Below, piece by piece: positions 1,149 to 23,684 of a stretch of 25,224 nt of DNA. Made by a program: the position numbers and the translations under genes. Source of the DNA: a virus; IMG/VR virus record IMGVR_UViG_3300046714_000030, positions 1 through 25,224 of that record. One strand, written 5' to 3'. Position 1 is the first letter of the stretch. Each line of letters starts with the position of its first letter. The notes under the pieces were generated by a model, which was not told where the DNA came from, did not search any database, and worked only from the letters and a program-made list of their open reading frames with translations.

Positions 1149-3194
1149 ATGAGCTACGCGCGAGCGCGATCCGTCACTGAGCGAACGGCGGAGCTTTACC
1201 GTCCGCCGCGTCGTGCGCTCGCGAGCGAAGTCGCGCGCGCGCATCTGCGGAACGATCGCGATCGCTGGGACGCCGATCTCGCGCCGATGATGATCGAGCC
1301 GCTCGACCAGATATCCTCGCGCGAATACACGGGGATCGTGTTCGTCGGTCCGGCGCGAAGCTCGAAGACGTTCACGCTCGTCGGCGGCGGCGTGTGCTAC
1401 GCCGTGATCGCGAGCCCGGGCGACGGCGCAATCGTGCATATCTCGCAAGACGCCGCGCGCGACTTCTCGCGAACGGACTTCGACCGGATGATTCGCTACT
1501 CGGACGCGCTCGCCGAGCGGCTCTCGCCGTATCGACGCGACGACAATACGTTCGATAAATTCTTCCGCTCCGGGATGATGGTCAAGCTGTCATGGCCCGC
1601 CGTCTCCCAGCTATCGTCGAAGACGCTTAAATACGTCTGGCTCACGGACTACGATCGACCGGAGAATCGCGACGACGTCGACGGCGAAGGTCCGCTCTTT
1701 GATCTCGCGGCGAAGCGGATCGAGACCTACATGAGCCGGGGCAAAGTGATCGCCGAGTCGAGCCCGGGCGAGGAGTTCGTCGACCGCACATGGAAAGCGT
1801 CGACGCCGCACGAAGCGCCGCCCGCTCCCGGAATATTATCTTTATATAATCGCGGTACTCGGGCGCGCTGGTATTGGCGTTGCGCGCATTGTGAAGCTCA
1901 CTTTCAAGCCGAGCCCGGACTCGGAAACTTTCGCCTACTGCCGAAGGAGCGCGAGCATCTGGAGAAGCTCGTCGCATCCGGGACCGATCTCCCGGGGCTC
2001 GCCGAGGAGTTCGCGAAGGTGCCGTGTCCGAAGTGCGGCGCGATCCACGAACAGAGCGAGCGCGGCGAACTCAATCGCGGCGCGGCGTGGGTTCACGAAG
2101 GGGACGTCTGGAACGGCAAGGAGTGGGACACGAACGGACGGCGGCGCTCGAAGATCGCGAGCTACTGGCTCGGCGGCGTGGCGGCGGCGTATCAGCGATG
2201 GGACTCGATCTTGCTGAAACACTTCCAAGCCCTCGCGGGCTATCTCCAGACGAACGACGAGCGCGCGCTGAAAGCGACCGCGTTTACCGATCAGGCTTTC
2301 CCGTACACGCCGCGCGCGGTCGCGCGCCGCCGGACCGCCGACGAGTTCTCGACGCGCTCGGAAGACTGGGCGCAAGGGCTGATCCCGGCGGGCGTCGCGT
2401 TCTTAATTACCGCGATCGACGTGCAAGTCCGGAGCTTCGTCGTGCAAGTTCACGGCTTCGGCGTCGGGCTCGAATCGTGGATCGTGGATCGCTACGTTCT
2501 CGCTATGTCCGAGCGGACCGACGTCGACGGGCGCAAGCTCGCGCTCGATCCGGCGAGCTACGCCGAAGACTGGGACGGGCTGAAAGACGTGATCGAGAAG
2601 ACGTACCCGCTCGACGGCGTCCCGGGCGCGATGATGGGGAGCCACGTCACGGTCTGCGACTCGGGCGGCGCGGAGGGCGTGACGCAACACGCCTACGACT
2701 TTTGGCGCAAGATGCGCGACGCCGGACACGCGCGGCGCTTCGGGCTCGTCAAGGGCGACGGTCGACCGTCCGCGCCGCGCTCGCAAGTCACCTACCCGGA
2801 CACGCGCCGGAGCGGGCGCGACGCCGGAGCCCGGGGCGATATCCCGGTCTGGATGCTCGCGACGACCTTCTGGAAAGACGCGATCTCGGGCGACCTTGCG
2901 CGCGATCAGCGGGGTCCGGGGTTCGTGCATCTCCCGCGCTGGCTGGGGCGCGAGTTCTACGAAGAACTCGTCAGCGAGGAGCGCAACAAGAAGGGCGTCT
3001 GGGAGCGGCTGAAGCCCGGGCTCAAGAATGAAGCGTTCACGCTCGCTTACTACGCGCGCGCCGCCGCCCAGATCGCCGGAGCCGAGAAGATCGACTGGAC
3101 GAAGCCGCCCGCGTGGGCGATCGCGCCGAAGCCGGGAGACAAAACGGAAAAAGTAGTATCCTTCGCCGAACTTGCGAAGGGGTTGAATCAATGA
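1149..3194 (+). CDS. Terminase large subunit (GpA-type ATPase and nuclease)
   Basis: The packaging motor: it cuts concatemeric DNA and pumps it into the procapsid through the portal. The protein has 681 residues, against 641 for lambda gpA. Visible ATPase motifs are a Walker A-like GPARSSKT (67-74), a Walker B-like VWLTDYD (about 163-169) and a coupling segment AESSPG (202-207). Two CxxC pairs (Cys245/248 and Cys293/296) are consistent with a zinc-binding insertion. The C-terminal nuclease domain begins near residue 415, with acidic candidates Asp424 (TAIDVQ) and Asp504 (VCDSGG). The ATG follows the previous TAA directly. The stop overlaps the gpW-like start (ATGA). The GpA family is associated with cos-type packaging, but the cleavage site is not identified. 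Confidence 0.95.
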   Translation: MSYARARSVTERTAELYRPPRRALASEVARAHLRNDRDRWDADLAPMMIEPLDQISSREYTGIVFVGPARSSKTFTLVGGGVCYAVIASPGDGAIVHISQDAARDFSRTDFDRMIRYSDALAERLSPYRRDDNTFDKFFRSGMMVKLSWPAVSQLSSKTLKYVWLTDYDRPENRDDVDGEGPLFDLAAKRIETYMSRGKVIAESSPGEEFVDRTWKASTPHEAPPAPGILSLYNRGTRARWYWRCAHCEAHFQAEPGLGNFRLLPKEREHLEKLVASGTDLPGLAEEFAKVPCPKCGAIHEQSERGELNRGAAWVHEGDVWNGKEWDTNGRRRSKIASYWLGGVAAAYQRWDSILLKHFQALAGYLQTNDERALKATAFTDQAFPYTPRAVARRRTADEFSTRSEDWAQGLIPAGVAFLITAIDVQVRSFVVQVHGFGVGLESWIVDRYVLAMSERTDVDGRKLALDPASYAEDWDGLKDVIEKTYPLDGVPGAMMGSHVTVCDSGGAEGVTQHAYDFWRKMRDAGHARRFGLVKGDGRPSAPRSQVTYPDTRRSGRDAGARGDIPVWMLATTFWKDAISGDLARDQRGPGFVHLPRWLGREFYEELVSEERNKKGVWERLKPGLKNEAFTLAYYARAAAQIAGAEKIDWTKPPAWAIAPKPGDKTEKVVSFAELAKGLNQ

Positions 3195-3391
3195 CGCCGG
3201 AAGAAGAACTGGCGCAACTACAAGCGGCGAGGGCGGCGCTCCTCTCGGGCAAGCAACAAACCGAAGTCCAATACGGCGAGCGGCGCGTGAAGTATGCGGT
3301 CGCCGATCTCGCCGATCTGAACACGCGGATCGCCGAGCTTACGTCGACCGTCTCCGGGACCGAACGCCGTCCGCTCGGCGTGATCTGGTAA
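3191..3391 (+). CDS. gpW-like head completion (head-tail joining) protein
   Basis: A 66-residue protein closely matching lambda gpW in size (68 residues), position and layout: two helices around a short beta hairpin. It has an N-terminal charged helix starting TPEEELAQLQAARAAL, a central SGKQQTEVQYGERRVKY hairpin and a second helix (ADLADLNTRIAEL), ending in a short arginine-containing tail. gpW binds the portal vertex after DNA packaging, retains the DNA and makes the head ready for the tail. The start ATG overlaps the terminase stop, and the stop overlaps the portal start (TAATG), as in lambda A-W-B. The nearby ATG at 3113 in this frame lies inside the terminase gene and would add a non-conserved extension. 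Confidence 0.9.
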   Translation: MTPEEELAQLQAARAALLSGKQQTEVQYGERRVKYAVADLADLNTRIAELTSTVSGTERRPLGVIW

Positions 3392-5058
3392 TGGGCGCGT
3401 CGCTCCCGATCATCGTCGACCAGCGCGGGCAACCGCTCCGGGCAGACGCGGCGTTTAACGCCGCCGAGCGCGCCGGGATGGAACTCGCGTCATGGACCCC
3501 GCCGCTTATGTCGGCGGATGGGGAATGGCTGGGCGAGCGGAACATCGCGCTCGCGCGTGTTCACGATCTGATCCGCAATCACGGCGGCATCTCGGGCGCG
3601 GTCCAGACGCAAGTCGATAACATGGTCGGCTCCGGGCTGCGGCTCGCCGCGAAGCCGAACTGGGAAGCTCTGGGCGTGACTGATCCCGCCCAGCAACTGA
3701 AGATCGAGAGCGCGATCGAGACCGCGTTCGACGACTGGGGGAACGACCCCGGCTACTACTGCGACGTCGAGCGGAACCTGACCTTCGGCGGGCTCGTCGC
3801 GCGCGGTTGCCGCTCGCATCTGACGAGCTTCGAGATTCTCGCGGTCGCCGAGTGGCTGGAGCGCCCGGGCGCGGAGTTCCGGACGACCATCCGGGGCGTC
3901 GATCCGCTCCGGCTCTCCCAGCCGTCGACGGCGATCGAGAGCGCGACCTTCAAGGCGGGGATCGAGTTCGACGACTTCGGCGCGGCGGTCGCGTATCACA
4001 TTGCGAACCGCGTCCCGACGGACCCCTACTCGGTCACGCGCCGGAACGATCTCCTTCGCTGGGTGCGTGTTCCACGGGAAACATCGTGGGGGCGCGCGAA
4101 CGTAATCCACATTTTCGAGCATGAGAAAGACGGGCAGACGCGCGGGCGTGGCGGCATTCTCGCGGCGCTCACGCGCGCGAAGATGCTCGACAAGCATGAA
4201 CAGGCGCATCTCCAGCAATCGATCTTGTCCGCCGTCTACGCGATGTTCGTAACGTCGCCGCTCGGTCAAGACTCGATCGGGCAAGCTCTGGGCGCGGGGC
4301 AGGGGATCGACGCGAATCTCGCGAGCTATCTCGCGGCGAAGACGGACTTCCACAAAGAAGCGAACGTGAAGTTCAACGGGGTCAGAATCCCGCACCTGTT
4401 CCCCGGGGAGAAGATCGAACACTCGAAGCCCGCGCATCCGTCGGCGAACTTCGAGAGCTTCGAGCGCATCTTCCATCGCTACATCGCGGCGTCGCTGAAT
4501 ATGACCTACGAACAGTTCACGAAGGACTATTCGCAGACGAACTACTCGGGGCATCGCGCGGCGTTGCTGGACTATTGGCGCTTCGTGACTGGACGGCGCT
4601 CGTCGATCTCGGGCAAGTTCGCCGGAGCGATCTACGTTCTGTGGCTGGAGGAGTTTCTCGACTCGGGCGGGCTCGACGGGATTCTCCCGAAGGGAGCCCC
4701 GGCGTTCTGGGACGCGAAAGCGGCATGGACGCGCCACGAATGGATCGGCCCGGGTCAAGGTCAGATCGACCCGTTGAAAGAAGCGAATGCGACGATGGTC
4801 GAGTTTCAATGCGGCGTGACGACGCTCGAAGCGGAATGCGCCGCGCGCGGGAAAGACTGGCGCGCGGTCCTGATCCAGCGCGCGCAAGAAGCCGCCGAAG
4901 CGAAGCGGCTCGAAACGCAATACGGGCTCGAACCGGGATCGCTCGACTACGCGAAGGGCGCATCGCCCGCGCCGCCGGGACCAGATGGCGGCGGAGACAC
5001 GGGCGCGCCGCCCGCGAAGAAGGAGCCCGCGCCTACACCGGAGCCCGCCAATGCATGA
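3391..5058 (+). CDS. Portal protein (lambda gpB family)
   Basis: The dodecameric channel at one capsid vertex through which DNA enters and leaves. It also nucleates procapsid assembly and docks the terminase. The 555 residues compare with 533 for lambda gpB. The N-terminal third carries the family-like segment with DLIRNHGGISGAVQTQVDNM and SGLRLAAKPN. The middle carries HIFEHEKDGQTRGRGG, and a WIGPGQGQIDPLKEANA segment lies near residues 450-467. All of these are typical of lambda-type portals. The last 30 residues are a low-complexity Pro/Ala/Gly tail. The gene starts in the TAATG overlap with the gpW-like gene and overlaps the protease start by 8 bases. Confidence 0.95.
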   Translation: MGASLPIIVDQRGQPLRADAAFNAAERAGMELASWTPPLMSADGEWLGERNIALARVHDLIRNHGGISGAVQTQVDNMVGSGLRLAAKPNWEALGVTDPAQQLKIESAIETAFDDWGNDPGYYCDVERNLTFGGLVARGCRSHLTSFEILAVAEWLERPGAEFRTTIRGVDPLRLSQPSTAIESATFKAGIEFDDFGAAVAYHIANRVPTDPYSVTRRNDLLRWVRVPRETSWGRANVIHIFEHEKDGQTRGRGGILAALTRAKMLDKHEQAHLQQSILSAVYAMFVTSPLGQDSIGQALGAGQGIDANLASYLAAKTDFHKEANVKFNGVRIPHLFPGEKIEHSKPAHPSANFESFERIFHRYIAASLNMTYEQFTKDYSQTNYSGHRAALLDYWRFVTGRRSSISGKFAGAIYVLWLEEFLDSGGLDGILPKGAPAFWDAKAAWTRHEWIGPGQGQIDPLKEANATMVEFQCGVTTLEAECAARGKDWRAVLIQRAQEAAEAKRLETQYGLEPGSLDYAKGASPAPPGPDGGGDTGAPPAKKEPAPTPEPANA

Positions 5059-6433
5059 CCTACTGAACTATCCGCGCGTCGCCGCGCGCATCTTCGACGT
5101 CCCGCTTCTGGTCGACCGCTCGAAGCTGAACGTCATTCTCGGCGCGCTCGGCGACCGGATGCAGTTCGACGCGCCGCCGAAGTCTGCCGACGCGGTCGGC
5201 GCGCAACACGCGACGCCCGACTCGCACGAACAAGCCCTTCTCTCCGAAGCCGCGATGAAGAACGTCCCGCTCAAGCGGGCGGACGGCGGCTACTTTATCG
5301 CCGGGGACGTCGCGATCATCCCGATCGTCGGGACGCTCGTTCAGCGGTCCGACTGGATGACCGAGTCTTCGGGCATGGTCGGCTATGGGCGGATCGCGAG
5401 CAAGTTCGCGGCGGCAATGGCGGACCCAGCCGTGGGCGAGATCATGCTCGAAATCGACTCCCCGGGCGGGGAAGTCGCCGGGGCGTTCGATCTGGCGGAC
5501 GGCATCTACAACGCGCGCGGAACGAAGCCGATCACGGCGGTCGCGTCCGAGCTTGCCGCGAGCGCGGCGTATCTGATCGCGAGCGCGGCGGACTCGATCG
5601 TCGTCCCCCGGACGGGCTACGTCGGGAGCGTGGGCGTCGTCGCCGCGCACTACGATATGTCGCGCCAGATGGAGAAGAAGGGCGTCGCCGTGACGTTGCT
5701 CTACGCGGGCGAGAAGAAGGTCGACGGGAACCCGTTCGAGCCGCTCGATCCGCGCGTTCGGGACGAGTGGATGGCGGAGATCAAAGCCGTCTACGGACTA
5801 TTCGTAAACACGGTCGCGCGCAATCTGGGGATTGCTCCCGGGCGCGTTGCGTCGACCGAAGCCGGGACGTTCATGGGCTCGAAAGCCGTCGAAGTCGGCT
5901 TCGCCCATCGCATCAACACCTTTGCGAACGAACTCGGAAACGCTATGCTTCGCGCCAACGCGGGCGGGAACCCTCGCTCGAATCTCTCACATAAAGGAGT
6001 CGATTCCATGATGACCGAGCAAGAGAAGAAAGACGCGGCGGACGCCGCCGCGAAAGCCCGCGCCGACGGTCTCGCCGAGGGCGAGAAGAACGCCGCGAGC
6101 GTCGCCGACAAGAAAGCCGCCGACGAACGGGCGCGCGTTCAAGCCATCCTGACGTCGCCGGAAGCCGAAGGGCGGACCGAACTCGCGAATCACTTCGCGT
6201 TCGGCACGACCATGAGCGCCGCCGACGCGCAAGCCGCGCTCAAGCTCGCGCCGAAAGCCGAGAAGAAGGGACCGCTCGCGTCCGCGATGGACAAGGCGAA
6301 GCCGTCGGGCGTCGCCCCGGACGGAACGGACAATACGGAGACGGTCGAGCGCAAGAAGATCGACAGTCGCGGCATTTACCAGCGTCGGAAAGACGCGGTC
6401 GCCGCCCGCAAGCGTCACGGCATTCCGGCCTAG
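5051..6433 (+). CDS. Head maturation protease, S49/SppA type (gpC-like), with scaffold-like C-terminus
   Basis: A 460-residue protein with the two-part layout of lambda gpC. Residues about 85-290 are an S49 protease domain. LEIDSPGGEVAGAF precedes the likely nucleophile Ser171 in ELAASAAYLIASAAD, and a downstream lysine pair (222-223) before VDGNPFEPLD gives the expected Ser-Lys dyad. From Met320 onward the protein is highly charged and Ala/Lys/Glu-rich, with little predicted globular character, as in scaffolds. The protease acts inside the procapsid to remove the scaffold and process head proteins. The chosen start, ATG 5051, overlaps the portal end. The longer in-frame ATG at 4985 would add an arginine-rich shadow of the portal gene. 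An internal start for the scaffold part is annotated separately. Confidence 0.93.
   Translation: MHDLLNYPRVAARIFDVPLLVDRSKLNVILGALGDRMQFDAPPKSADAVGAQHATPDSHEQALLSEAAMKNVPLKRADGGYFIAGDVAIIPIVGTLVQRSDWMTESSGMVGYGRIASKFAAAMADPAVGEIMLEIDSPGGEVAGAFDLADGIYNARGTKPITAVASELAASAAYLIASAADSIVVPRTGYVGSVGVVAAHYDMSRQMEKKGVAVTLLYAGEKKVDGNPFEPLDPRVRDEWMAEIKAVYGLFVNTVARNLGIAPGRVASTEAGTFMGSKAVEVGFAHRINTFANELGNAMLRANAGGNPRSNLSHKGVDSMMTEQEKKDAADAAAKARADGLAEGEKNAASVADKKAADERARVQAILTSPEAEGRTELANHFAFGTTMSAADAQAALKLAPKAEKKGPLASAMDKAKPSGVAPDGTDNTETVERKKIDSRGIYQRRKDAVAARKRHGIPA
5994..5999 (+). promoter_or_regulatory. Internal ribosome binding site for the scaffold
   Basis: AAGGAG, 8 bases upstream of the in-frame ATG at 6008 and inside the protease coding sequence. 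It is one of the strongest Shine-Dalgarno matches in the window, which argues that it is functional rather than chance. Confidence 0.7.
6008..6433 (+). CDS. Internal in-frame scaffold protein (Nu3-like) nested in the protease gene
   Basis: This is the last 141 codons of the protease gene, probably also made as a separate protein. A near-perfect AAGGAG (5994-5999) lies 8 bases before ATG 6008, in the middle of a coding region where no such site is needed. A second ATG follows at once. The product begins MMTEQEKKDAADAAAK and is rich in Ala, Lys, Glu and Asp, with probable long helices, as in scaffolding proteins. In lambda, Nu3 is produced in exactly this way from within gene C, sharing its C-terminus. 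Scaffold copies would guide capsid shell assembly and then be degraded by the protease domain of the full-length product. Confidence 0.7.
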   Translation: MMTEQEKKDAADAAAKARADGLAEGEKNAASVADKKAADERARVQAILTSPEAEGRTELANHFAFGTTMSAADAQAALKLAPKAEKKGPLASAMDKAKPSGVAPDGTDNTETVERKKIDSRGIYQRRKDAVAARKRHGIPA

Positions 6434-6506
6434 CGCCGAGCGCGCGTCGGAGCTTTCCTTTACTATCCGGCTCGCATCACTCCAAACGAAAACAGGAGAC
6501 TAGAAG
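6434..6506 (+). promoter_or_regulatory. Intergenic leader with strong ribosome binding site before the capsid gene
   Basis: At 73 bases this is the longest gap between genes after the left leader. It ends in AGGAG (6494-6498), 8 bases from the capsid ATG, which suits a highly expressed gene. A short CCGA/TCGG hairpin with a CTTTCCTTTAC stretch after it lies around 6436-6465. I do not see a convincing -35/-10 pair or terminator, so only the ribosome binding site is firm. Confidence 0.5.
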
Positions 6507-7997
6507 ATGGAACCGAAAACAGAAGGTCGCCACGCGGCGAGCTTCATCATGAGCGAAGCGAACGGGAATCGCTCGCGCGAGACCGTCCTGATCGCCGAAG
6601 GTGAAGTCGTCACGGCGGGGCAAGTCATCGCGAAGCGGACGTCGGGCTCGTTCTCCGGCGACTACGTCGCGTTCGATCAAGACGGGAACGACGGCAGCGA
6701 GACCCCGATCGGGATCGCGATCAACGGCGTCGACGCAACGGACGCCGCCGTGAAAGAAGCCATCATCGCGCGCGACGCGGAAGTGAATGGCGATCAACTG
6801 GGCTGGCCCGACGATATCGAAGGGAGCGAGAAAGAAGACGGCGTCTCGGGGCTGGCGGACCTTGGAATCATCGTCCGGCTCCTGATCGTCGCGCTCGCGC
6901 TGGGCTGGATGATGGTCGGCGGCACGACCCCGGAACAAGCGGGGCTCGCGATGGCGCTCGTCGGGCTGGGTATGCTGGACGTCTTCAAGGGCTCGGCGTT
7001 CGACACGCTCTCGCTGACCGACGCGATCAACGAGATTCCGTTCGTCCCCGGGCGCGCGGGAATGCTGATCCCGTGGCGCGAGAACGGCGTGAACACGTTG
7101 TCGATTGCGATCGAGCAAAAGGCGGGCGTTCTCTCGCTTATCAATCCGTCGCCGCGCGGCGGTCCCGGCGAAGCGATCGGGAAACAGACGCGCTCGCTCC
7201 GTATGCTCCGCATCCCGCACTATCAGCGGGACGACGCGATCATGGCGGATGAAGTGCAGGGCGTCCGCGCGTTCGGCTCGGAGACCGAACTCGAAACGGT
7301 ACAGGGCAAGGTAAACGAGCGCATGGCGGAACACGTCGATCTCGGGCTCGACCCGACGCTCGAATATCAGCGCGTGGGCGCGGTGAAGGGCGTGATCCTG
7401 AACGCCGACGGCTCGACGCTGATGAACCTGTTCACCGAGTTCGACGTCTCGCAAGCTGGCGAGATCGACTTCGATCTGGACAACGCGACGCCCGCGAGCG
7501 GCGCGCTTCGCGCGAAGTGCGCGGCGGCGGTCCGGCTCTCGATGGACGCGCTCGGCGGGCTCCCGGTCGTGGGGCTTCATGCTTTCTGCGGCGACACGTT
7601 CTTCGATCAGCTTCTCGCCCACAAGGAAGTCGTCGCGAGCTATCTCACGACGCCGATGGCGCAAGTTCTCCGCGAGGGCTACGTCTACCCGAACGGCGAC
7701 AAGGTCTACGGCGCGTTCGAGTTCGGCGGGATCGTCTGGGAAAACTATCGCGGCAAGGTGAACGGCTCGCCGATCATCGAAGCCACGAAAGCCCATATCT
7801 TCCCGATCGGGAACGGTCTGTTCCGGACCGTGTACGCCCCGGCGGACTACAACGAGACGGTCAACACGCTGGGGCTCCCGCGCTACGCGAAGCAATTCCC
7901 CATGCCGAACGACAAGGGCGTCTCGATGGAAATCCAGTCGAACGCTCTGAACTACTGCACACGCCCGCTCTCCTTGCTGAAAGGCAAGAACACCTAA
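6507..7997 (+). CDS. Decoration protein-major capsid protein fusion (gpD-gpE)
   Basis: One uninterrupted 496-residue frame holds two proteins that are separate in lambda. Residues 1-124 are a head decoration protein of the gpD family: EGRHAASFIMSEANGNRSRE at the start, IGIAINGVDAT in the middle, and the family's usual end ARDAEVNG ... LADLGIIVR. Residues 125-155 are a very hydrophobic linker with two apolar stretches around a GGTTPEQ turn. Residues 156-496 are a major capsid protein starting at a natural-looking Met156 (MLDVFKGSAF, then LTDAINEIPF). They total 341 residues, the same length as lambda gpE. In lambda, gpE builds the shell and gpD trimers clamp it. Met156 (ATG 6972) could serve as an internal start, but I see no Shine-Dalgarno site before it. 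Two sequencing indels bracketing the linker are the main alternative explanation. Confidence 0.9.
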   Translation: MEPKTEGRHAASFIMSEANGNRSRETVLIAEGEVVTAGQVIAKRTSGSFSGDYVAFDQDGNDGSETPIGIAINGVDATDAAVKEAIIARDAEVNGDQLGWPDDIEGSEKEDGVSGLADLGIIVRLLIVALALGWMMVGGTTPEQAGLAMALVGLGMLDVFKGSAFDTLSLTDAINEIPFVPGRAGMLIPWRENGVNTLSIAIEQKAGVLSLINPSPRGGPGEAIGKQTRSLRMLRIPHYQRDDAIMADEVQGVRAFGSETELETVQGKVNERMAEHVDLGLDPTLEYQRVGAVKGVILNADGSTLMNLFTEFDVSQAGEIDFDLDNATPASGALRAKCAAAVRLSMDALGGLPVVGLHAFCGDTFFDQLLAHKEVVASYLTTPMAQVLREGYVYPNGDKVYGAFEFGGIVWENYRGKVNGSPIIEATKAHIFPIGNGLFRTVYAPADYNETVNTLGLPRYAKQFPMPNDKGVSMEIQSNALNYCTRPLSLLKGKNT

Positions 7998-8006
7998 CGG
8001 GGCGCG

Positions 8007-8351
8007 ATGGCATCCCTCGCCGTTCTCCAGAGAGAGATCGACGCATCGATCTTCTCGGAGATCGGCGAGGTTCTTCGCTTCGGTTCACTCGAAGCGTCCG
8101 GAATTCTGCACAAGGCGTACCGCGAGATCGAGTTCCCGAGCGGCTACGTCGTCGGGCTCGCGATCTCGTTCGACTGCACATGGTCCGACTGGATGGGCTC
8201 GCTCACAGAGGGCGACGAAGTCTCCGTCTACGGGCTCGATGCGAGCCAGACCGAAGTCGCGCTCGGCTCGTTCCGCTTCATTCGGCGCATTCCGCCGGAC
8301 GGCGACGAATCCTCGCTCGTCATTCTCGAACTCGGTAGTCTGGGCGCATGA
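8007..8351 (+). CDS. gpFII-like head-tail connector protein
   Basis: A 114-residue beta-rich protein directly downstream of the capsid gene, where lambda has FI and FII (FII is 117 residues). FII-type proteins attach to the gpW ring and form the surface to which the tail docks. The N-terminal helix (VLQREIDASIFSEIGE) followed by strands (YVVGLAISFDC, EVSVYGLDA, SLVILELGSLG) fits this family, but the sequence match is by pattern and position only. The ATG follows a GGGGCG stretch. The stop overlaps the next start (ATGA). A phage gp13/ATP-binding-like connector is the same functional class. Confidence 0.65.
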   Translation: MASLAVLQREIDASIFSEIGEVLRFGSLEASGILHKAYREIEFPSGYVVGLAISFDCTWSDWMGSLTEGDEVSVYGLDASQTEVALGSFRFIRRIPPDGDESSLVILELGSLGA

Positions 8352-8809
8352 GCGATCCGCTTTCGCTCACGGTCCGCGATGCCGTGATCGACGCGCTGAA
8401 CGAGCCCGCCGGGAGCGGCGACGTCCCGGTCGCGACGAAGCGCCGCGTCATGCCGGGGGAGCCGATCAAGGAGCCCTTTATCGCCGTCTTTCTGGACGAC
8501 GAGAACGTGAACCTTCCGCAAGGAACGCGCGGCGCGATCGCCGCCCGGGACGTCGGGATCAATATCCAGATCGGCGTCGCAACCGCTGATCTCTCCACGG
8601 TCGACGACTTGCTCGAACCCTTGCGCGCTCATGTGATCGAGCGTCTCGGCGACACTGATCTCGACGGGCTCGCGACGAGCGTAATCGAAGTCGGGATTCC
8701 CGAGGGCGGGCGGATCGCTTACAAGCTCGACCTTTATAACGCGCTCGTCTTTTCCTACTGGCGCGTCCGCTACCAAACGAAGCGCGCCGATCTGAGCGCG
8801 AAACAGTAA
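8348..8809 (+). CDS. gpU-like tail terminator / minor tail protein
   Basis: A 153-residue protein with the layout of lambda gpU: an N-terminal helix LTVRDAVIDALN, a strand segment (EPFIAVFLDDENVNL), a second strand (VGINIQIGVA) leading into a helix (LSTVDDLLEPLRAHVIERL), and a final strand (LYNALVFSYWRVRYQTKR). The tail terminator caps the growing tail tube and later forms the tail side of the head-tail joint. The position before the tail tube gene agrees with this, although five extra genes are inserted between them. gpZ-type tail completion is the alternative. It overlaps the upstream gene by 4 bases. Confidence 0.65.
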   Translation: MSDPLSLTVRDAVIDALNEPAGSGDVPVATKRRVMPGEPIKEPFIAVFLDDENVNLPQGTRGAIAARDVGINIQIGVATADLSTVDDLLEPLRAHVIERLGDTDLDGLATSVIEVGIPEGGRIAYKLDLYNALVFSYWRVRYQTKRADLSAKQ

Positions 8810-8813
8810 GGAG
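8808..8813 (+). promoter_or_regulatory. Strong ribosome binding site for the small membrane protein
   Basis: AAGGAG, beginning within the stop codon of the tail terminator gene, with a 7-base spacer to ATG 8821. It marks the beginning of the inserted gene block. Confidence 0.65.
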
Positions 8814-8820
8814 AACGACG

Positions 8821-8964
8821 ATGGGACAGATAGGAAGATTTGCGCTCGGCGGCTTTGTGGCGCTCCAGAGCGTAGCGATGATTCTCGGCGGAACGACGAT
8901 CCCGCTCTGGGCGATCGGAGTCGTCGGAATTGCGGCGGCGATCGCGATCTTTATCGGCAAGTGA
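8821..8964 (+). CDS. Small two-helix membrane protein
   Basis: A 47-residue ORF (MGQIGRFALGGFVALQS...) preceded by a strong AAGGAG (8808-8813) 7 bases before the ATG, so it is very probably translated. About 80 percent of it is hydrophobic: residues 7-22 and 27-46 can each span a membrane, separated by a GGTTIP turn, and it ends in Lys. Its stop overlaps the GTG start of the next gene (GTGA), so it is translationally coupled to the glycan-type genes. The function is unknown. It could anchor the neighbouring enzymes at the membrane. A holin is less likely because no lysis partner is adjacent. The turn resembles the linker in the capsid fusion (GGTTPEQ). Confidence 0.7.
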   Translation: MGQIGRFALGGFVALQSVAMILGGTTIPLWAIGVVGIAAAIAIFIGK

Positions 8965-9698
8965 AGCCGTTCTCGTCGCTCGTTCACGCGCACGTCGGGC
9001 GCGTCGGCGTCGCGATGGGCGGCGGGCTCTCTCTCCCCGAGCAAGTCAACCGCGCGCCGTCCGGCTCGGTTCTGATCTCGGCGAACGAACACGGCGCGAA
9101 GCTCGGCGTCGGGATCGACTACATCGTCGGCGTCGATCGCCACGTTCTCGACGAGAAGCATCTCCGCGCGTTCGGCGTCCCGCTGATCGCGCCGCATAAC
9201 TGGGCGGACTACCGGATCGCGAAACAGCATCATCCGAGCGCCGGGATTACTACGGCGTGGGCGCTCTGGGTCATGGGCTGCGCGCCGATCTTGCTCGCCG
9301 GAATGGACTTGTACCGGGGCGGGACGTATTGGCACAAGCCCGACGCGCGCTCGACTGGGAACACGGTCAAGCTCGGACGGCATATCGATCGCTGGCTCGC
9401 GTTGAAGAACGCTTGCGGCGGCGTTCTCTCGCCGTTTCGCGCGATGGGCGGACCCTTGCTGGACTTCTTCCCCCGCTACGATCCGAGCGAGCGCGTGACG
9501 CCCTCGCACGTCGTCGCGGCGGCGAAAAGCGCGACGGGCGTCCGGGTTGCCGTGGAGCGCCGCTACGCGACGCGCAACGCGGACGGGTTCGAGCCCGGGG
9601 ACGAGCCCGAGCTTGCGCCGGAACACGCCGAGCGGCTCGTCCGGGGCGGCTATGCGCGATATCTCGATGCTCCCGGTCAGCTACCCCGCTCCCGCTGA
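8961..9698 (+). CDS. DUF115/MptE-like putative glycan-associated protein
   Basis: A 245-residue protein starting at GTG 8961, coupled to the previous gene. The pattern suggests a Rossmann-type fold of the kind grouped with DUF115/MptE-like proteins and bacterial sialyltransferase-like enzymes. The segment SVLISANEHG (36-45) precedes GIDYIVGVDRHVL (51-63). It is followed by SAGITTAWALWVMGC (93-107) and APILLAGMDLYRGG (108-121), the family's alternation of a small-residue helix and a strand ending in G-x-D. In other phages and bacteria such proteins accompany glycosyltransferases and flagellin or surface glycosylation. The substrate is unknown. The next three genes all fit a glycan or protein modification theme. 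Its end overlaps the next gene by 47 bases. Confidence 0.5.
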   Translation: MKPFSSLVHAHVGRVGVAMGGGLSLPEQVNRAPSGSVLISANEHGAKLGVGIDYIVGVDRHVLDEKHLRAFGVPLIAPHNWADYRIAKQHHPSAGITTAWALWVMGCAPILLAGMDLYRGGTYWHKPDARSTGNTVKLGRHIDRWLALKNACGGVLSPFRAMGGPLLDFFPRYDPSERVTPSHVVAAAKSATGVRVAVERRYATRNADGFEPGDEPELAPEHAERLVRGGYARYLDAPGQLPRSR

Positions 9699-10401: not shown

Positions 10402-11117
10402 AATTCTGGGAAAAGGGCGGATGGTGGCTCCCCGACGTGGAAGAACACCTTCAGGAGTGGATGACGAAGGTCAACAAGTGGCGGACCAGCGCGGACGGCT
10501 CGCGACGCTTGCTCTACCAAGCGCACAAATACGAGCGCGCCCGCGCGCTACAGGCGGATCGATCCGGGCTCGCGGTCGACGTCGGCGGACACGTCGGGCT
10601 CTGGTCGTGGCAGATGGCGCAAGACTTCGCGAGCGTCGTCGCGTTCGAGCCCGTGAAGGAGCATCGTCAATGCTGGGAAAGGAACATGGCGGCGATCCCC
10701 TACGTCGAGTGTCATCCTTGCGCGCTCGGCGCGGAAGCCGGGACGGTCCGGCTGAAGTGCCGGACCCCGGGCTCGTCGGGCGACACGGGCGTCGACCCAG
10801 TCGCCGAACGGAGTTCGCTCCGGGCGAGCGTGGACGTCGAAGGGGAAGAAGCCGAACTGCGGACGCTCGACTCGTTCGGGCTGGAGAATGTCCGTTTTAT
10901 GAAGCTCGATTGCGAGGGCTACGAGTTCCACGTCTTGCGCGGCGCGCTCGCCACGATCGAGCGATGCCGTCCGGTTATGGTCATCGAGCAAAAGCTCCAG
11001 ACGGGCATGGAGGAACGCTACGGGCTGGAGCCGAAACAAGTCTTCGATCTCCTCGCGGGGCTGGGCGCGAAGCATCGCGGCAGCATCCAAGGAGACCATT
11101 TTTTCTCGTTCGCGTAG
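10398..11117 (+). CDS. FkbM-type SAM-dependent methyltransferase
   Basis: A 239-residue class I methyltransferase. Motif I is AVDVGGHVGLWS (59-70), the acidic loop after strand 2 is AFEPV (82-86), and the FkbM signature FMKLDCEGYEFHVLRGA lies at 167-183. A final strand VMVIEQK follows at 193-199. FkbM enzymes usually O-methylate sugars or polyketides and often sit in glycan clusters. ATG 10398 is preferred: it overlaps the previous stop (ATGA) and has GGGAGAAG upstream. ATG 10383 would add five residues. The N-terminal 50 residues are Trp- and Lys-rich, with no recognised domain. It lies between two glycosyltransferase-like genes, so a methylated sugar decoration is a natural inference. Confidence 0.8.
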   Translation: MKFWEKGGWWLPDVEEHLQEWMTKVNKWRTSADGSRRLLYQAHKYERARALQADRSGLAVDVGGHVGLWSWQMAQDFASVVAFEPVKEHRQCWERNMAAIPYVECHPCALGAEAGTVRLKCRTPGSSGDTGVDPVAERSSLRASVDVEGEEAELRTLDSFGLENVRFMKLDCEGYEFHVLRGALATIERCRPVMVIEQKLQTGMEERYGLEPKQVFDLLAGLGAKHRGSIQGDHFFSFA

Positions 11118-11131
11118 AATCCCCCGGCAAT

Positions 11132-11920
11132 ATGGGCATGGGCGACGAGATCATGGCGGCGGGGCGAGCGGAGACGCTTTATCAGTCGACGCGCTTCCCG
11201 GTCGCCGTGACCGACTCGAAGGGTCGCGTACGCTGGTCCGAAATGTGGGACGGGAACCCCGCGCTCGATCCTAACTCTCCCCAGAAGCTCGTCGACTGCC
11301 CGGGTCATCGCGCGTATATCGAACGCTGGATCGGTCGCCGAGTCGTCTTCCGGCAGGAGCATCGCCCGCGCGCGGGGAAGATTTTCCTCGCGCAAGGCGA
11401 ACTCGCGTGGGCGGCTCAACTGGGCTTGCCGGACGAGTTCATTCTCGTCGAGCCCACGATCGCGCCCAAGTCGAGCCCGAACAAGCAATGGGGGCGCGCG
11501 AACTGGGAGAAGCTCGTCTCTCTCCTGACGCTCCCGGTCTACCAGATGGGACCAGACGACGGGCGGATCACGCTCCCCGGCGCGCATCGCATCATGACGC
11601 CGACGGCGCGACACGCCGCCGCGATCGTCGCGCGCGCGCGCTTGCTCGTTCTCCCCGAGGGCGGGCTTCACCATATCGCGGCGTCGTTCGGTCGGCGCGC
11701 GGTCGTGATCTTCGGCGCGTTCACGCCGCCGCTCGTCACGGGATACGACTTCCACACGAACATCGCGGTCGAGACGCCCGAGGGTTACTGCGGGCGCTAT
11801 GAACCTTGCTCGCATTGCGCGGCGGCTATGGCGACGATCTCGCCGGAACACGTCGCAGGGCTCGCGGGGGTCATGCTCGCTGCGTCGTCAACCGCGCCGC
11901 GCGAAGTGGCGCATAACTAG
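11132..11920 (+). CDS. GT9-like glycosyltransferase (heptosyltransferase-type fold)
   Basis: A 262-residue GT-B-type protein. The N-terminus has a G-x-GDEIMAAGRAE segment, the counterpart of the G-x-GD loop of GT9 enzymes. The C-terminal donor half has LVLPEGGLHHIAASFG (172-187), then VVIFGAFTPP (191-200), matching the GT9 pattern D/E.G..H.a...g followed by .lFGpt.P. Three cysteines (220, 226, 229) precede ISPEHV, again as in GT9 proteins, which end with a Cys cluster and an I.p..V segment. At 262 residues it is shorter than typical heptosyltransferases (about 330-350), so the N-terminal acceptor domain is reduced. The long upstream frame (from 10421) only shadows the methyltransferase gene. 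The sugar and acceptor are unknown. Confidence 0.65.
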   Translation: MGMGDEIMAAGRAETLYQSTRFPVAVTDSKGRVRWSEMWDGNPALDPNSPQKLVDCPGHRAYIERWIGRRVVFRQEHRPRAGKIFLAQGELAWAAQLGLPDEFILVEPTIAPKSSPNKQWGRANWEKLVSLLTLPVYQMGPDDGRITLPGAHRIMTPTARHAAAIVARARLLVLPEGGLHHIAASFGRRAVVIFGAFTPPLVTGYDFHTNIAVETPEGYCGRYEPCSHCAAAMATISPEHVAGLAGVMLAASSTAPREVAHN

Positions 11921-16350: not shown

Positions 16351-17343
16351 ATGTCGGTCCAAGCGGACGAAATCCTCTACTACAAGTCGCTAGTCGTCTC
16401 GGACGCCGCCGGGAACGGCGGGCGCATGAGCGCGAACGAGATCGTCGACGGCGCGGCGCGCAACGTCTTCAACACGGTCGGCGAATCCGAGCGGACGGCG
16501 GGCTCGACCAAGTACCGGAAAGTCTTCATCAAGGTCGCTAACGACGACGATCTCCCGGGCTCCGAGCCGAAGGTCGTTCTCGATCGCTACACGCTGGGCG
16601 ACGATATCGTGACCTTCATCCCCGGCACTCAGACCGACGTCCAGAGCGCGATCGCGGGAACCCAGTATGGAGCCGGGAAGCTCGACGCGAACGTAGTCGC
16701 GACCGCGACGACGCTCGACATTCTGGTCGAAGACGGAACGAATCATACGTTCGTGAACGGCGCGTCGATCCGCATCTCGGATATGGCGGACGTTCAAGCG
16801 AGCGGGAACGAAGAATTCGTGACGATCTCGGGCGCGCCGTCCGTTCTGGGCGACGTCGTCTCGATCACGTTTACGCCCGCGCTCGCGAACAACTACTCGG
16901 CGAGCAATACCTACGTCCAGCGCGTCTACACGCCGCCCGCCGACGTGGAAGCCACGATCGACAACGTCGTCGTCACGTCCGCCGCCGGGACGTTCGACGA
17001 TGACTTCTTGCTACCGGATGCGATCGGCGGAATCGAAGACGTAATCACGGCGACGTTTACGAGCGCGACGGCGTTTACGCTGGTCGGCGCGGTCGCGGGC
17101 GCGCTCGGCGTGGGAAGCGTGGGCGCGGGAGCCGCTCCCGTGAACGCGGACTTCGGCAAGCCGCGCTTCGTGATCCAGAGCGCGGGCTTCGGCGGGACGT
17201 TCGTCGCCGGGAATACGATCGTGTTCCAGACCCATCCGGCGGCGGTCCCGATCTGGCTGAAGCGGCTCGTCCCGGCGGGAGCCGGACCGTTCACGGCGAA
17301 TGAATGCGTTCTCGCGCTGATCTGTGAGACGTCGGCGTCATGA
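16351..17343 (+). CDS. Conserved phage structural protein, tail tip region
   Basis: A 330-residue, mainly beta protein with a good AGGGAGAG site 6 bases or so upstream. The N-terminal part (ILYYKSLVVSD, NGGRMSANEIVDG, NVFNTVGESERTAGSTKYRK, VFIKVANDDDLP) is a segment I recognise from conserved but functionally unnamed tail-region proteins of Pseudomonas-type phages. These are usually next to proteins like the 405-residue one at 20805. The C-terminal part is rich in Gly, Ala and Thr strands and ends with a segment containing FQTHPAAVPIWLKRLVPAGA. No enzymatic motif is visible. A baseplate or tail tip component is the likeliest role. Confidence 0.7.
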   Translation: MSVQADEILYYKSLVVSDAAGNGGRMSANEIVDGAARNVFNTVGESERTAGSTKYRKVFIKVANDDDLPGSEPKVVLDRYTLGDDIVTFIPGTQTDVQSAIAGTQYGAGKLDANVVATATTLDILVEDGTNHTFVNGASIRISDMADVQASGNEEFVTISGAPSVLGDVVSITFTPALANNYSASNTYVQRVYTPPADVEATIDNVVVTSAAGTFDDDFLLPDAIGGIEDVITATFTSATAFTLVGAVAGALGVGSVGAGAAPVNADFGKPRFVIQSAGFGGTFVAGNTIVFQTHPAAVPIWLKRLVPAGAGPFTANECVLALICETSAS

Positions 17344-17576
17344 TGTACCCCCATCCGCCCGAGACGACGCTACTCGTCGCGAAGGAGACCGGACGCGGCG
17401 CGGTCACGGCGCATAACGTCGAGCTACTCCTTCGCCCGGATCGGCTCCCCGGCGAATCGTGGCTGGGCTACAGGGCGCGTCTACGCGCGGCGCGGGATTG
17501 GCGCAAGGCGAACCGCTCGGGCGCGCGGCGCGTGGCGGAGAGCGTCCCAGAGGGCAACATCGCGGGCAAGCGGTAA
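17340..17576 (+). CDS. Small basic protein of unknown function
   Basis: A 78-residue, Arg-rich protein (MMYPHPPETTLLVAKETGRG...) starting at ATG 17340, which overlaps the previous stop; ATG 17343 directly after is equally possible. The middle has SWLGYRARLRAARDWRKANR, probably a basic amphipathic helix. I recognise no family. Its place inside a run of tail tip genes, overlapping on one side and directly abutting on the other, suggests a morphogenesis accessory or minor virion component. Coding potential is supported by the tight spacing and by codon use like its neighbours. Confidence 0.55.
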   Translation: MMYPHPPETTLLVAKETGRGAVTAHNVELLLRPDRLPGESWLGYRARLRAARDWRKANRSGARRVAESVPEGNIAGKR

Positions 17577-18491
17577 ATGAGCGACGCCGCGCTCCAAGCC
17601 CAGACCGAAGTCCGGTTCTCGAAGACGGTCAAGGCGGGCGACTTCGGGCTCGCGATCGTGGGCAACCCGGGCGCGTATCTGGACTCCCTGATTCACTTGC
17701 TGCTGATCCCGGACGTCCCGGCGTCGCTGGTCGCGGACGTGGGCTCGATCCAGCTTGGACAAGCGCGCCCCTACGACGTCCCGGGCGGGATTCTCACGTT
17801 CTCGAACTCGGACGCGACGAAGCTCCCGATGGCTCCGATCGGCACGATCCCCGAGTTCCGTCGGCTGTTCGCGTTCGGCGCGACGGGGCAAGTCGTCGGC
17901 GTGACCGCAAGCTGGGAAGAATCGACGCAACAAGTCCGGCTCTCGCGACCGATCACGGGCGCGATTGCCTATGCGAAGTATCGGACGACCGCGCGCGAGT
18001 TCGTCTACACGCCGCAAGTCGAAGTCTTCGGACAAGGTTCCGCGACGACCTACGGCGTGATCTGCGCGCACTATCGCGGCACGATCATTACCTATGAAGC
18101 GACGCCGTCGACGATCGAGCGCGGGCTCGCGCTGATCGAGCTTTACCGCCGCTACTCTTACAAGGTCACGAATCGAGACGGGCAGTTCGAGAAGCCGCCG
18201 AACTATCCGACGAGCGGCGCGTATCCGGATGCTCCATCGTTCACGCTGGACGTCGACGGCTCGACGCAGTTCGAGCGCGTCCATGAGATCGGACTCATGA
18301 ACGAGCGCGGCTATGCATGGGTCGAGACGCCGAACGTCAACATTCTGGAGCCGTTCGTCGACGTACCGACATACGTCCCGACGATCTCGGTCCGGATCAA
18401 CGCGCTAGACCCGACGAAGTATCCGCCCGAGATCATCGCGAAAGCGAAAGACTTCATCAAGTCGAGAGGGCTCGGGACTGGGGTCTCGTAG
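17577..18491 (+). CDS. Tail or baseplate structural protein, unknown family
   Basis: A 304-residue soluble protein whose ATG directly follows the previous TAA. It is a mix of strands and helices, for example DFGLAIVGNPGAYLDSLIHL near the start, then GGILTFSNSD and FAFGATGQVVGVTASWEES, and later TLDVDGSTQFERVHEIG. There is no signal peptide, membrane segment or enzyme motif. The size and position, between the tape measure block and the large tail protein, suit a baseplate or tail tip component. I cannot link it to lambda L, K or I. Confidence in coding is high; the role is inferred from position only. Confidence 0.65.
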   Translation: MSDAALQAQTEVRFSKTVKAGDFGLAIVGNPGAYLDSLIHLLLIPDVPASLVADVGSIQLGQARPYDVPGGILTFSNSDATKLPMAPIGTIPEFRRLFAFGATGQVVGVTASWEESTQQVRLSRPITGAIAYAKYRTTAREFVYTPQVEVFGQGSATTYGVICAHYRGTIITYEATPSTIERGLALIELYRRYSYKVTNRDGQFEKPPNYPTSGAYPDAPSFTLDVDGSTQFERVHEIGLMNERGYAWVETPNVNILEPFVDVPTYVPTISVRINALDPTKYPPEIIAKAKDFIKSRGLGTGVS

Positions 18492-20801
18492 ATGCCCGCC
18501 GTCGTAACGCACGACTTCCATCGAGACGAAGCGGTCCGCTCGGTCACGGGCTCGGAGAATCTCGGCTTCTTGCTCGCGCGCTCGGGTGCGGCGCTCGCGC
18601 CGAAATGGTGGGCGCATTACGCCGACGGCGTCGTGGAGGAGATCAATCCGGCGGACGGTCATCCGCGCCCCGATCCTGATCCCGCCGTTCGCTCCAAGCG
18701 CGTCGCGATCCCGCCGTCGATCCAGACGCAAGACGGGCTCGTCATCAAACACGGGAGCAAGTTCTCGGGGCTGATCCGGCGCGCGGTCCAGTGTCAATAT
18801 TCGCGCGGGCTGGAGACCAAGTTCTCCCATCTCTGGTCGAAGACCCACGGCATCATCGAGTATCCGCAAGATCGCGAAGTGGGCTCGACCAAGGGCGAAG
18901 AAGCGGTTCTCCTCGCGACGCGCCGCCAGTGGGTCATCGAGATATCCGCGCAAGGCGTGTTCGCCGCGCCGCTCGCGATCGGCGCGGACTGTCGGCGATG
19001 CGCGACCGATATCTCGAACTATCTACCGACGGCGTCCCAGCTTGCGTCGCATCCGGAATGGTCCGCCTACGCTTCGGAGCTTTCGCTCGCGTGGGCGTAT
19101 GCGAATAAGAACGAGAGCGGCGCGGTTCTCCAGCTTCTGACCGCTGGCGCGATCGCCCCGGCTTACGCGAACGGCGCTCCTTGGTACTCGGGTATGGGCT
19201 GGGCGTTCTCTGGCTCGGGCTACGCCGCGTCGAACGTCGTCGCGCGCACGATCTTCGACGGCGAATCGGTCGGACTGCCGGACTACTACGAGACGCGGCT
19301 TCTCGATCTCGACTTCACGGTCTCATTTACGGGCTCGGTCATTACCGCGCTCACGGCGGCGAGCGGCGTCGCTTACGCGAACATGGCGGGACACGGGTTC
19401 GTCGAAGGGGCGCTCGTCTCGATCTTCGGAGCCACGCCCGACGACTACAACGGCGCGCACATCATCCGCAACGTCACGGCGGACTCTTTCGAGTTCACGG
19501 TCGAGTCGGGAATCCCGAGCCCCGCGAGCGGCTCGCCACAAGCGGCGAACGCGGCGGGCGTGGCGACGATCACGGCGGCGCTCACGACCGGAACGCCGGG
19601 GCGCGTGACGTTTCGCTGGGCTGATCTCGGGACGCTCTGGGTTCCGGGCTCGGAACAGTTCACGCGCTGGGACGGCATTCGTCCCTTCCGGAATATCTTC
19701 AACTGTTCGGGCGTCGTCCATGTTTTCTACGACGGCGAAGAAAAGGTCGTCACGAACTGGCGGAGCCAAACCGGAACGGTCGCCGAGGAGCGCATCTTGA
19801 GTCCGCACCCGGACCCGAGTTCGCCGAACTATCCGCTCCCGGCGGGAGCCGATCCGAACAACTACTGGGCGGGCGTGACGTTCGGCTTTCACTACTGGGC
19901 GTCGGCTCCGCTCTACATCGACCCGTATCCACAAGACAACAAGGCGAACCCAGATTGCAAGTTCAAATACGCCGATTATGTGATCGGGTCCGGGCATCTC
20001 TATAGCAGCTACGGCAATCTCGAATGGGGCTTTAGCGGTCCGTTTAATCACATCGTTAATGCTTATTCGCGCAACCGCATCGAGACCGAGACCCATTGGT
20101 ACACGGATCACATTCGCGACCCGGGCTTCGACACGTTCTATAACAGCGGATACGTTGAATGCGGGACGTCTCCGCCGCGATCGTGCGCGGCGACGTTCGT
20201 CTACCGCGCCTACAAACGGACGATGGTCAAGAACACGGCGCGCGTGACCGAGGGCGGCTCGGGCTCGTCCGCGTTGTTCCTCTTTCCGATGGAGCGCGAA
20301 GCGGTCGGCGGCGTGAAGCGAACGAGCAACACTTACGCGACGACGAACAGCGCGGTCGGCGGAAACTTTCTCAAGAGCCGGATCGTGACCGAACACGTTA
20401 TTCACGCGGGCTTCCCGTTGTGCAACATCGCGCAGTTCGACATAGCGCCCGCCGGACTTCCATCCGTCGGACCGACGATCTCTCAGCCCGTCGTGAACAC
20501 GTCGAGCGCGACGAAAGAGTTCGCGATCCGCGCGTCGGGCGGCGTCTCGATCTCGGGCAGCATTGCGGGCGCGTCCGCCGATCTCGATCCGTTCATCGTC
20601 TGGCAAGCGGGCGTCAAGGAGACGGCGGACTCGTCTATCTTCTACATGGGCGGCGGGCTCTACAACGCGGACCCGGGCTTGAACCCGCCGGACCAAACGG
20701 ACAATAGAGTTTATAGTCGCGACGGCGTCCAGAGCGTGACGTCGGGCTTTACGGCGCTACCGTCCGGGCGGACCCCGGTTGCGTTTATCGGACAGGTGTA
20801 A
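18492..20801 (+). CDS. Large tail protein with inserted beta module
   Basis: A 769-residue protein, the second largest in the window, starting at ATG 18492 right after the previous TAG. The N-terminal 270 residues contain unusual cysteines (VQCQYSRG, GADCRRCATD) and many aromatics. Residues about 278-350 carry a copy of the HGF..GA.VSIFGA..DDYNG module that also occurs twice in the 405-residue gene downstream. The second half is rich in Tyr, Trp, Phe and Asn (NYWAGVTFGFHYWASAP; LYSSYGNLEWGFSGPFNHI), typical of surface-exposed fibre or carbohydrate-binding proteins. No lambda gpJ-like domains are recognisable. It may be the central tail tip or receptor-binding protein. No catalytic motif is evident. 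Confidence 0.7.
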   Translation: MPAVVTHDFHRDEAVRSVTGSENLGFLLARSGAALAPKWWAHYADGVVEEINPADGHPRPDPDPAVRSKRVAIPPSIQTQDGLVIKHGSKFSGLIRRAVQCQYSRGLETKFSHLWSKTHGIIEYPQDREVGSTKGEEAVLLATRRQWVIEISAQGVFAAPLAIGADCRRCATDISNYLPTASQLASHPEWSAYASELSLAWAYANKNESGAVLQLLTAGAIAPAYANGAPWYSGMGWAFSGSGYAASNVVARTIFDGESVGLPDYYETRLLDLDFTVSFTGSVITALTAASGVAYANMAGHGFVEGALVSIFGATPDDYNGAHIIRNVTADSFEFTVESGIPSPASGSPQAANAAGVATITAALTTGTPGRVTFRWADLGTLWVPGSEQFTRWDGIRPFRNIFNCSGVVHVFYDGEEKVVTNWRSQTGTVAEERILSPHPDPSSPNYPLPAGADPNNYWAGVTFGFHYWASAPLYIDPYPQDNKANPDCKFKYADYVIGSGHLYSSYGNLEWGFSGPFNHIVNAYSRNRIETETHWYTDHIRDPGFDTFYNSGYVECGTSPPRSCAATFVYRAYKRTMVKNTARVTEGGSGSSALFLFPMEREAVGGVKRTSNTYATTNSAVGGNFLKSRIVTEHVIHAGFPLCNIAQFDIAPAGLPSVGPTISQPVVNTSSATKEFAIRASGGVSISGSIAGASADLDPFIVWQAGVKETADSSIFYMGGGLYNADPGLNPPDQTDNRVYSRDGVQSVTSGFTALPSGRTPVAFIGQV
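19325..19560 (+). repeat. Beta module, copy 1 (protein-level repeat)
   Basis: This encodes residues about 278-355 of the 769-residue protein. The pattern is VITALTAASG, then HGFVEGALVSIFGA, DYNGAHIIRN, a DSFEFTV strand and a PASGSP end. It aligns by eye with the two modules at 21278 and 21598. The similarity is at protein level; I see no obvious DNA identity. Confidence 0.5.
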
Positions 20802-20804
20802 ACG

Positions 20805-22022
20805 ATGGCTTCCGTCCCTCAGAGCATCGCGTATCTCGAACAGCGTCTCTCCGGCGGCGCGGCGAACGCGGACCCGGACGCTTCACTGGGCGGCGTAATG
20901 TCGAGCGAGCGCATCCTCGCGCAGTCGACGACCGCGCTCTCGAACGTAACCGGGGTCGTGATCGACTACGCGGGCGGCAACCCAGCGGGCGCGGGCTCGC
21001 TCGCGTTCGACTTCTCCGACGGGACGCTGACGTGGACGCCGAACGGTCTGGACGCGGGCGACCCCGTCGACGTGAACGACGCGACCGGACGCTATGCGAT
21101 CTTCGGCGAACAAGGCGTCTTGCTCGTCACGGTCACGACGGGCTCGCTCGCGGGCTCGGACAAGACGGACGCGGTCACGATCGCATACATCGCGAACGAA
21201 CAGTTCGACGACGTCACGAAGGGCGAGTCGTTCGCCGGGGACTCGGAGTATCGATGCTTCTACGTCGAGAACGCATACTCGGGCTCGGTTACGTCGATCA
21301 CGCGCTCGGGCGGGACGGCGCACGTCACGACCGCCGCGAATCACGGCTACGTCTCGGGCGACGAAATCTCGCATCGTGGCGCGGTTCAACCGGAATACAA
21401 CGTGTCCGAAGTAATCACGGTCATCGACGCGAACGAATACGAGTATCCAGTCTCAGGCGCGCCCGCGACTCCGGCGACGGGCGCGATCTTCCACGGCAAA
21501 CAGATGCTCTCGGTTGAAGTCTACATCGCGACCCAGCCAGACCCGGGAACGGTCTCGGTCGGCGTGGATGCGGCGGGCGTGGGCGACGGCGCGACGAAGA
21601 CGGTCTCCTCGCTCACGCGCGCGAGCGCGACGGTCACGGCGACGACGGCGGCTCCGCACTCCTACGAGACGGGGCAGACGGTCACGATCGCGGGCGCGAC
21701 GCAAAGCGAATACAACGGCGTCCAGACGATCACGGTTACGGGCGCGTCGACCTTTACCTATGCGATCGCGGGAACGCCCGTCACTCCGGCGACGGGATCG
21801 CCCACGGTCTCGCGCGGCGTGGCGGTCACGGTCGCGGACGAGAACACGGCTCCGGTCGGCGTGACGTTCTCCGAGCCCGACGAAGTCGGCGTCGCGCTCG
21901 TTCTCGCGGCGCTTCGCCCGGGCGAGTCGGTCGCGTTCTGGAAACGGCGCGTCATCCCGCAACGGAACACGACGACGAACGCCGAGACGCTCGATCAACT
22001 GAGCTTCGCCGTCTTCTCGTAG
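20805..22022 (+). CDS. Conserved tail-region protein with two inserted beta modules
   Basis: A 405-residue beta protein. The backbone resembles a recurrent phage structural protein: ADPDASLGGVMSSERI near the start, then EQFDDVTKGESFAGDSEYRC, FYVENAYSG, then MLSVEVYIATQPDPGTVSVG, then VTVADENTAPVGVTFSEPDE and GESVAFWKRRVIPQRN. These backbone pieces are separated by two copies of a roughly 70-residue module at residues about 158-229 and 265-339. Each module has a HGY.SGDEI or HSYETGQTVTIAGA strand pair, then an EYN turn, then ITV...T/YEY/FTY and PATPATG. The modules look like domains inserted into loops of an older fold. No enzyme motif is present. A tail surface protein is likely. Confidence 0.7.
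   Translation: MASVPQSIAYLEQRLSGGAANADPDASLGGVMSSERILAQSTTALSNVTGVVIDYAGGNPAGAGSLAFDFSDGTLTWTPNGLDAGDPVDVNDATGRYAIFGEQGVLLVTVTTGSLAGSDKTDAVTIAYIANEQFDDVTKGESFAGDSEYRCFYVENAYSGSVTSITRSGGTAHVTTAANHGYVSGDEISHRGAVQPEYNVSEVITVIDANEYEYPVSGAPATPATGAIFHGKQMLSVEVYIATQPDPGTVSVGVDAAGVGDGATKTVSSLTRASATVTATTAAPHSYETGQTVTIAGATQSEYNGVQTITVTGASTFTYAIAGTPVTPATGSPTVSRGVAVTVADENTAPVGVTFSEPDEVGVALVLAALRPGESVAFWKRRVIPQRNTTTNAETLDQLSFAVFS
21278..21490 (+). repeat. Beta module, copy 2 (protein-level repeat)
   Basis: Residues about 158-229 of the 405-residue protein. SVTSITRSGGTAHVTTAANH leads into GYVSGDEI, an EYN turn, VITVIDANEYEYPVSG and APATPATGA. It separates the backbone strand ending CFYVENAY from the one starting MLSVEVYIA. 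Confidence 0.55.
21598..21820 (+). repeat. Beta module, copy 3 (protein-level repeat)
   Basis: Residues about 265-339 of the 405-residue protein. TVSSLTRASATVTATTAAPH leads into SYETGQTVTIAGA, SEYNGVQTITVTG, STFTYAIAG and TPVTPATGSP. It is closer to copy 2 than to copy 1, which suggests a duplication within the gene. Confidence 0.55.
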
Positions 22023-22786: not shown

Positions 22787-22795
22787 GCTCCGCTG

Positions 22796-23680: not shown

Positions 23681-23684
23681 AACG

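Follow-up and report, generated by a model that had tools for sequence, protein, structure and literature searches.

A lambda-type decoration domain and capsid protein in one open reading frame: a probable fusion through an apolar capsid extension

Whether a lambda-like phage can carry its head decoration protein (gpD type, here D) and its major capsid protein (gpE type, here E) as parts of a single polypeptide is the question raised by one locus of the window, as we call the whole 25,224-nucleotide stretch of viral DNA analysed here. The elements of this locus, and the three head genes that precede it, are as follows.

1149-3194, plus strand: terminase large subunit, gpA type (Pfam GpA_nuclease and GpA_ATPase)
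3391-5058, plus strand: lambda-family portal protein (Pfam Phage_portal_2, E 9e-88)
4985-6433, plus strand: S49-family head maturation protease, gpC type, directly upstream of the fused gene (Pfam Peptidase_S49, E 1e-27; PHROG head maturation protease, E 4e-114)
6494-6498, plus strand: ribosome-binding site AGGAG of the fused gene (-7.4 kcal/mol with the anti-Shine-Dalgarno sequence)
6507-7997, plus strand: fused D-E gene, one open frame of 496 codons with no internal stop
6507-6878, plus strand: gpD-type head decoration domain, residues 1-124 (Pfam HDPD at residues 4-121, E 8e-32)
6879-6971, plus strand: apolar linker, residues 125-155 (LLIVALALGWMMVGG-TTPEQ-AGLAMALVGLG), aligning without gaps to the E extension of relative L001
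6951-6953, plus strand: Met149, a weak candidate for an internal start (-6.7 kcal/mol)
6972-7997, plus strand: gpE-type major capsid protein core, residues 156-496, with the stop codon (Pfam Phage_cap_E, E 9e-97)

Two complete shell-protein domains in one frame

Both halves of the fused protein are recognized at full length by Pfam. Residues 4-121 correspond to positions 2-116 of the 116 in the HDPD profile (PF02924), scoring 110 bits against a cut-off of 29, which places this part by profile in the lambda gpD family, and residues 167-494 correspond to positions 2-328 of the 329 in Phage_cap_E (PF03864), a full-length match of 324 bits against a cut-off of 22.9. The PHROGs assignments, head decoration and major head protein, agree with those of Pfam, and the D domain ends in LGIIVR, as do the D proteins of relatives. 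In a single-chain structural model both domains are drawn with confidence, and the PDB matches of the fused protein are E-type phage capsids and lambda gpE, that is, proteins of the HK97-type fold; residues 127-157 lie mostly below a pLDDT of 50 and are drawn as two short helices. No fused D-E structure occurs among the structure-library matches listed.

The separate D gene that characterizes the gpD family is not found here, since neither a stop nor a start lies between D and E. The window has no stop codon for D, no gap between the genes, no ribosome-binding site or start codon for E, and none of the charged first residues. The coding signal is unbroken across the join, with third-position G+C of 0.79 in D, 0.90 in the linker and 0.87 in E, all in one frame. 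The linker has a mean Kyte-Doolittle value of 1.45, compared with 0.99 for the top 31-residue stretch elsewhere in the fused protein, and when residues were drawn at random from the remainder of the protein, just 21 of 20,000 samples were as apolar; these draws, and the relatives described below, rule out that it is apolar by chance. The initial annotation had read residues 1-124 as gpD-type, 125-155 as apolar and 156-496 as gpE-type within one ORF, a description that the open frame, Pfam and PHROGs bear out, and the out-of-frame TGA that it placed at 6883-6885 is indeed there. Positions 6507-7997 are confirmed as one intact frame with both complete domains.

The surroundings are those of a lambda-type head gene module (terminase, portal, S49 protease, D and E, in that order), with the neighbouring head genes intact. 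Among the closest relatives of the portal, the protease, D, E and three genes that follow E, the same contigs (L001, L145, L188 or L197) recur for genes on both sides of the join; the contig is therefore not a junction of two phages, and a chimera at the D-E boundary is ruled out. The three genes after E (8007-9698) each find matches in only four of the fetched relatives, L001, L145, L188, L197 and L147 being among these, and they mark a small syntenic phage group. Elsewhere in the window, a 499-codon ORF among the tail genes (10421-11920) has a marginal match to the Pfam glycosyltransferase family 9 (22.5 bits against a cut-off of 22) and no PHROG match, and the region after the tape measure gene (16351-24611) is a run of ORFs with no PHROG matches or with matches of unknown function only, two of which (18492-20801 and 20805-22022) share the family phrog_9998.

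Separate genes and extended capsid proteins in the relatives

The search for a D-linker-E architecture that the initial annotation had proposed covered viral contigs, reference genomes and phage records as well as three surveys of genomes, the last of which brought the number of genomes searched to 1187. It yielded 243 distinct E genes accompanied by a D gene at their locus, and the window holds the sole fusion among them, D and E being separated by a stop in the other 242. None of the 58 prophage loci from one genome survey has a D-E fusion. Several single open frames of 464-694 amino acids that appeared to span D and E in a genome search were rejected because the DNA of the 36 genome loci that were read shows an in-frame stop or separate frames. 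Two patterns, a degenerate one spanning the D-linker junction (GIIVRLLIVA) and an exact one from the E core, returned no second contig of the window virus. In the open-licence literature we found no natural gpD-gpE fusion.

In the relatives, the distance from the D stop to the E core is about 20-200 bases (more in a few prophages) and includes a start codon, and a ribosome-binding site is present in the D-E gap wherever this was examined. Evidence against the fusion, as named in advance, would be relatives in which a stop follows residue 124 and the capsid gene has its own start; every relative is built in this way, and yet the fusion in the window stands, because there the stop, gap, ribosome-binding site and start are absent and not merely out of frame. 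Six relatives (L226, L223, L236, L237, L002 and L041) have D and E in one frame with a single stop between them and the ATG of E one to seven codons behind it, an arrangement in which one stop change would yield a D-E fusion. Two size classes of D were noted in this group (D genes of L005, L008, L021, L024 and L026), a short form of about 120-130 residues and a long one of about 215-230, the latter with an insert of roughly 90 residues after the AGTVLGK region.

An apolar, two-segment extension at the N-terminus of E is found in seven independent relatives, all with a separate D (L001, L024, L025, L026, L027, L256 and L275); L028 has an E core identical to that of L027 and is an unlabelled duplicate. 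In all seven, the extension lies in the E frame behind a ribosome-binding site of its own, and in L025, L027, L256 and L275, which have no Met at the start of the core, it must be translated as part of E. Extensions are about 31-50 residues long. In L001, D ends in LGIIVR followed by a stop, and E, behind a strong ribosome-binding site (-8.7 kcal/mol), begins with MKCIKNQMWMVAAVMLAAVLTISGVIEPSPLVFAAVGVG-MLDVFKGS. Read backwards from MLDVFKGSAF, the window linker aligns with this extension without a gap, 8 of 31 residues being identical as compared with 72% of the E core, with the apolar pattern kept. Such rapid change under a constant apolar pattern would suit a segment kept for its hydrophobicity. 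As in the other extended capsid proteins, the two apolar segments of the window are joined directly to LDVF or LDIF at the start of E.

No stand-alone hydrophobic gene was found between D and E in any of the relatives. Since the extension already belongs to E in seven of them and no such free gene occurs, comparison of the sequences identifies the linker as an N-terminal extension of E and not a third gene. The recurrence of an apolar N-terminal extension on lambda-type capsid proteins, in eight independent sequences, is a broader and firmer result than the fusion itself, and explains the linker. A search of the open-licence literature returned no description of an apolar N-terminal extension on the shell protein of a tailed phage, and the E extension is apparently undescribed so far.

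The L001 extension is modelled, at moderate confidence, as a helix over residues 2-23 followed by a short second helix over 30-37. Scored for membrane insertion on a residue scale, each of six extensions has a favourable first apolar segment but not a favourable second one. The extensions of the relatives have positive residues before the first apolar segment and a mostly acidic or uncharged loop between the two, a charge pattern that would fit a hairpin in the membrane whose two ends both lie in the cytoplasm. We are unsure of this topology, because the second apolar segment, scored by itself, does not come out as a membrane span.

Origin of the join and rival explanations

In a tree built from E cores, the window forms a group with L145 (75% identical, unextended), joined next by L001 (extended), while the other extended sequences used fall in a second well-supported group, mixed with unextended ones. 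The first six extended sequences need six changes on this tree, one of which is due to the unlabelled duplicate L028. A single origin of the extension finds no support in so patchy a distribution, and its history is likely to have been one of repeated loss or exchange. Most simply, the fusion would have arisen by an in-frame deletion that began at the stop of D and ended shortly after the extension begins: an ancestor with separate D and E genes, whose E already had the apolar two-segment extension, would have lost the stop codon of D, the gap carrying the ribosome-binding site for E, the start codon of E and the charged residues that came first.

The fusion comes from one metagenomic contig and is probably real. 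That D and E are in truth separate, a short intergenic stretch having been lost by the assembler, is an unlikely though serious alternative: there is that single contig to set against separate genes in all 242 of the other distinct relatives, the nearest of which, L001 and L145, show a stop, a gap and a strong ribosome-binding site at the join. A single-base error, however, would be insufficient, as the stop, gap, ribosome-binding site and start are all gone and both sides share one frame; the adjoining head genes are intact, and the end of D and the beginning of the extension share at most eight identical bases (in five extended relatives), too few for an assembler to collapse. A frameshift or missed stop was rejected, since the coding pattern and the frame run through the join and a start signal for a separate E is absent; if the TGA at 6883 were in frame, E would have no good start at 6909 or 6912 and its first apolar segment would be cut off.

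Other alternatives accept the open frame and differ on what is made from it. The fusion might be a precursor whose apolar linker is cut by the S49-family head protease or by a host protease, leaving a mature head like that of lambda. SppA-type enzymes cut apolar signal peptides, a head protease of this S49 (SppA-type) family is encoded just upstream, and the modelled linker is poorly ordered; as there is no known cut site and, to our knowledge, the N-terminus of lambda gpE is not trimmed, we consider cleavage possible but rather unlikely. Internal initiation at Met149 (6951) or Met156 (6972), giving free capsid protein beside the fusion and a mixed shell, seems improbable. The pairing upstream of Met149 is fair at -6.7 kcal/mol, but about equals that of the best background ATGs inside the gene; Met156, the start suggested in the initial annotation, finds little support, its pairing being weak (-2.5 kcal/mol, against -7.4 for the D start); and in the extended relatives E starts at the extension, four of them having no Met at the core start. 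The same annotation had proposed a D-E fusion, possibly of three parts with a separate small membrane protein in the middle. The contig supports the D-E fusion; the three-part version, to which the two apolar segments and the turn between them lend some appeal, is very hard to maintain when the relatives offer no example of an independent hydrophobic gene between the two and seven of them already have the apolar segment as the start of E.

A tethered decoration domain beside known systems

On balance, then, we favour a real in-frame gene fusion that yields a tethered shell protein decorated 1:1. From one start, a chain of roughly 53 kDa would be made, comprising D, the apolar link and E. Lambda gpD and gpE are present in the head in nearly equal numbers, and the dose of one D per E in the fusion would come close to that ratio. 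At the three-fold axes of the lambda head, gpD contributes its N-terminal strand to a sheet shared with the E-loop of one gpE and the N-arm of an adjacent one (PMC5701804), and gpD binds expanded shells only, late in DNA packaging (PMC7602432). By analogy, D would be carried on an arm of E that in lambda adjoins the D site at the local three-fold axes, and each D could dock after the shell expands; given these contacts and the near-equal numbers of gpD and gpE, attachment to the N-terminus of E would bring D near its site and in the right number.

For the apolar segments, the most likely arrangement would be a hairpin in or on the inner membrane that holds both D and E in the cytoplasm while the early shell assembles, or they might instead pack together near the three-fold axis. 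Membrane-bound early shells, dependent on the portal protein, have been imaged for SPP1 (PMC13212656). We advance only tentatively, as a conjecture less probable than not, that a group of lambda-like phages has a capsid protein with a built-in membrane hairpin that nucleates the shell on the inner membrane, D being here part of the same chain to give a self-decorating, membrane-tethered subunit.

A natural D-E fusion, if true, would test whether late timing and separate dosing of D are needed, and would also bear on the orientation of the E arm in the early shell. The apolar E extension, in its eight independent sequences, offers a lead on membrane-started head assembly in some phages (compare SPP1; PMC13212656). 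The D-E fusion could also serve as a ready-made 1:1 display scaffold.

Among known systems, HK97-type capsids with an N-terminal scaffolding (delta) domain likewise have a shell protein with additional residues at its N-terminus. The delta domain has about 100 residues and is cut off by the head protease, whereas extensions of the kind found in the window have about 31-50 apolar residues and fall short of that length. Lambda gpD and gpE share with the fusion both complete domains and the same order after terminase, portal and S49 protease, but are encoded by two genes, while the window has one chain with an apolar segment between the domains; lambda, moreover, adds D to the expanded shell only (PMC7602432). 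L145 (IMGVR_UViG_3300009609_000352), the nearest relative by E core, has a 75% identical E and the same neighbouring genes, but its E starts directly at MLDVFKGSAF, with neither extension nor fusion. L001 (IMGVR_UViG_3300036760_000027), the nearest extended relative, has a D and an E core 61% and 72% identical to those of the window and the same apolar E extension, and differs in having D and E as separate genes, with a strong ribosome-binding site before E.
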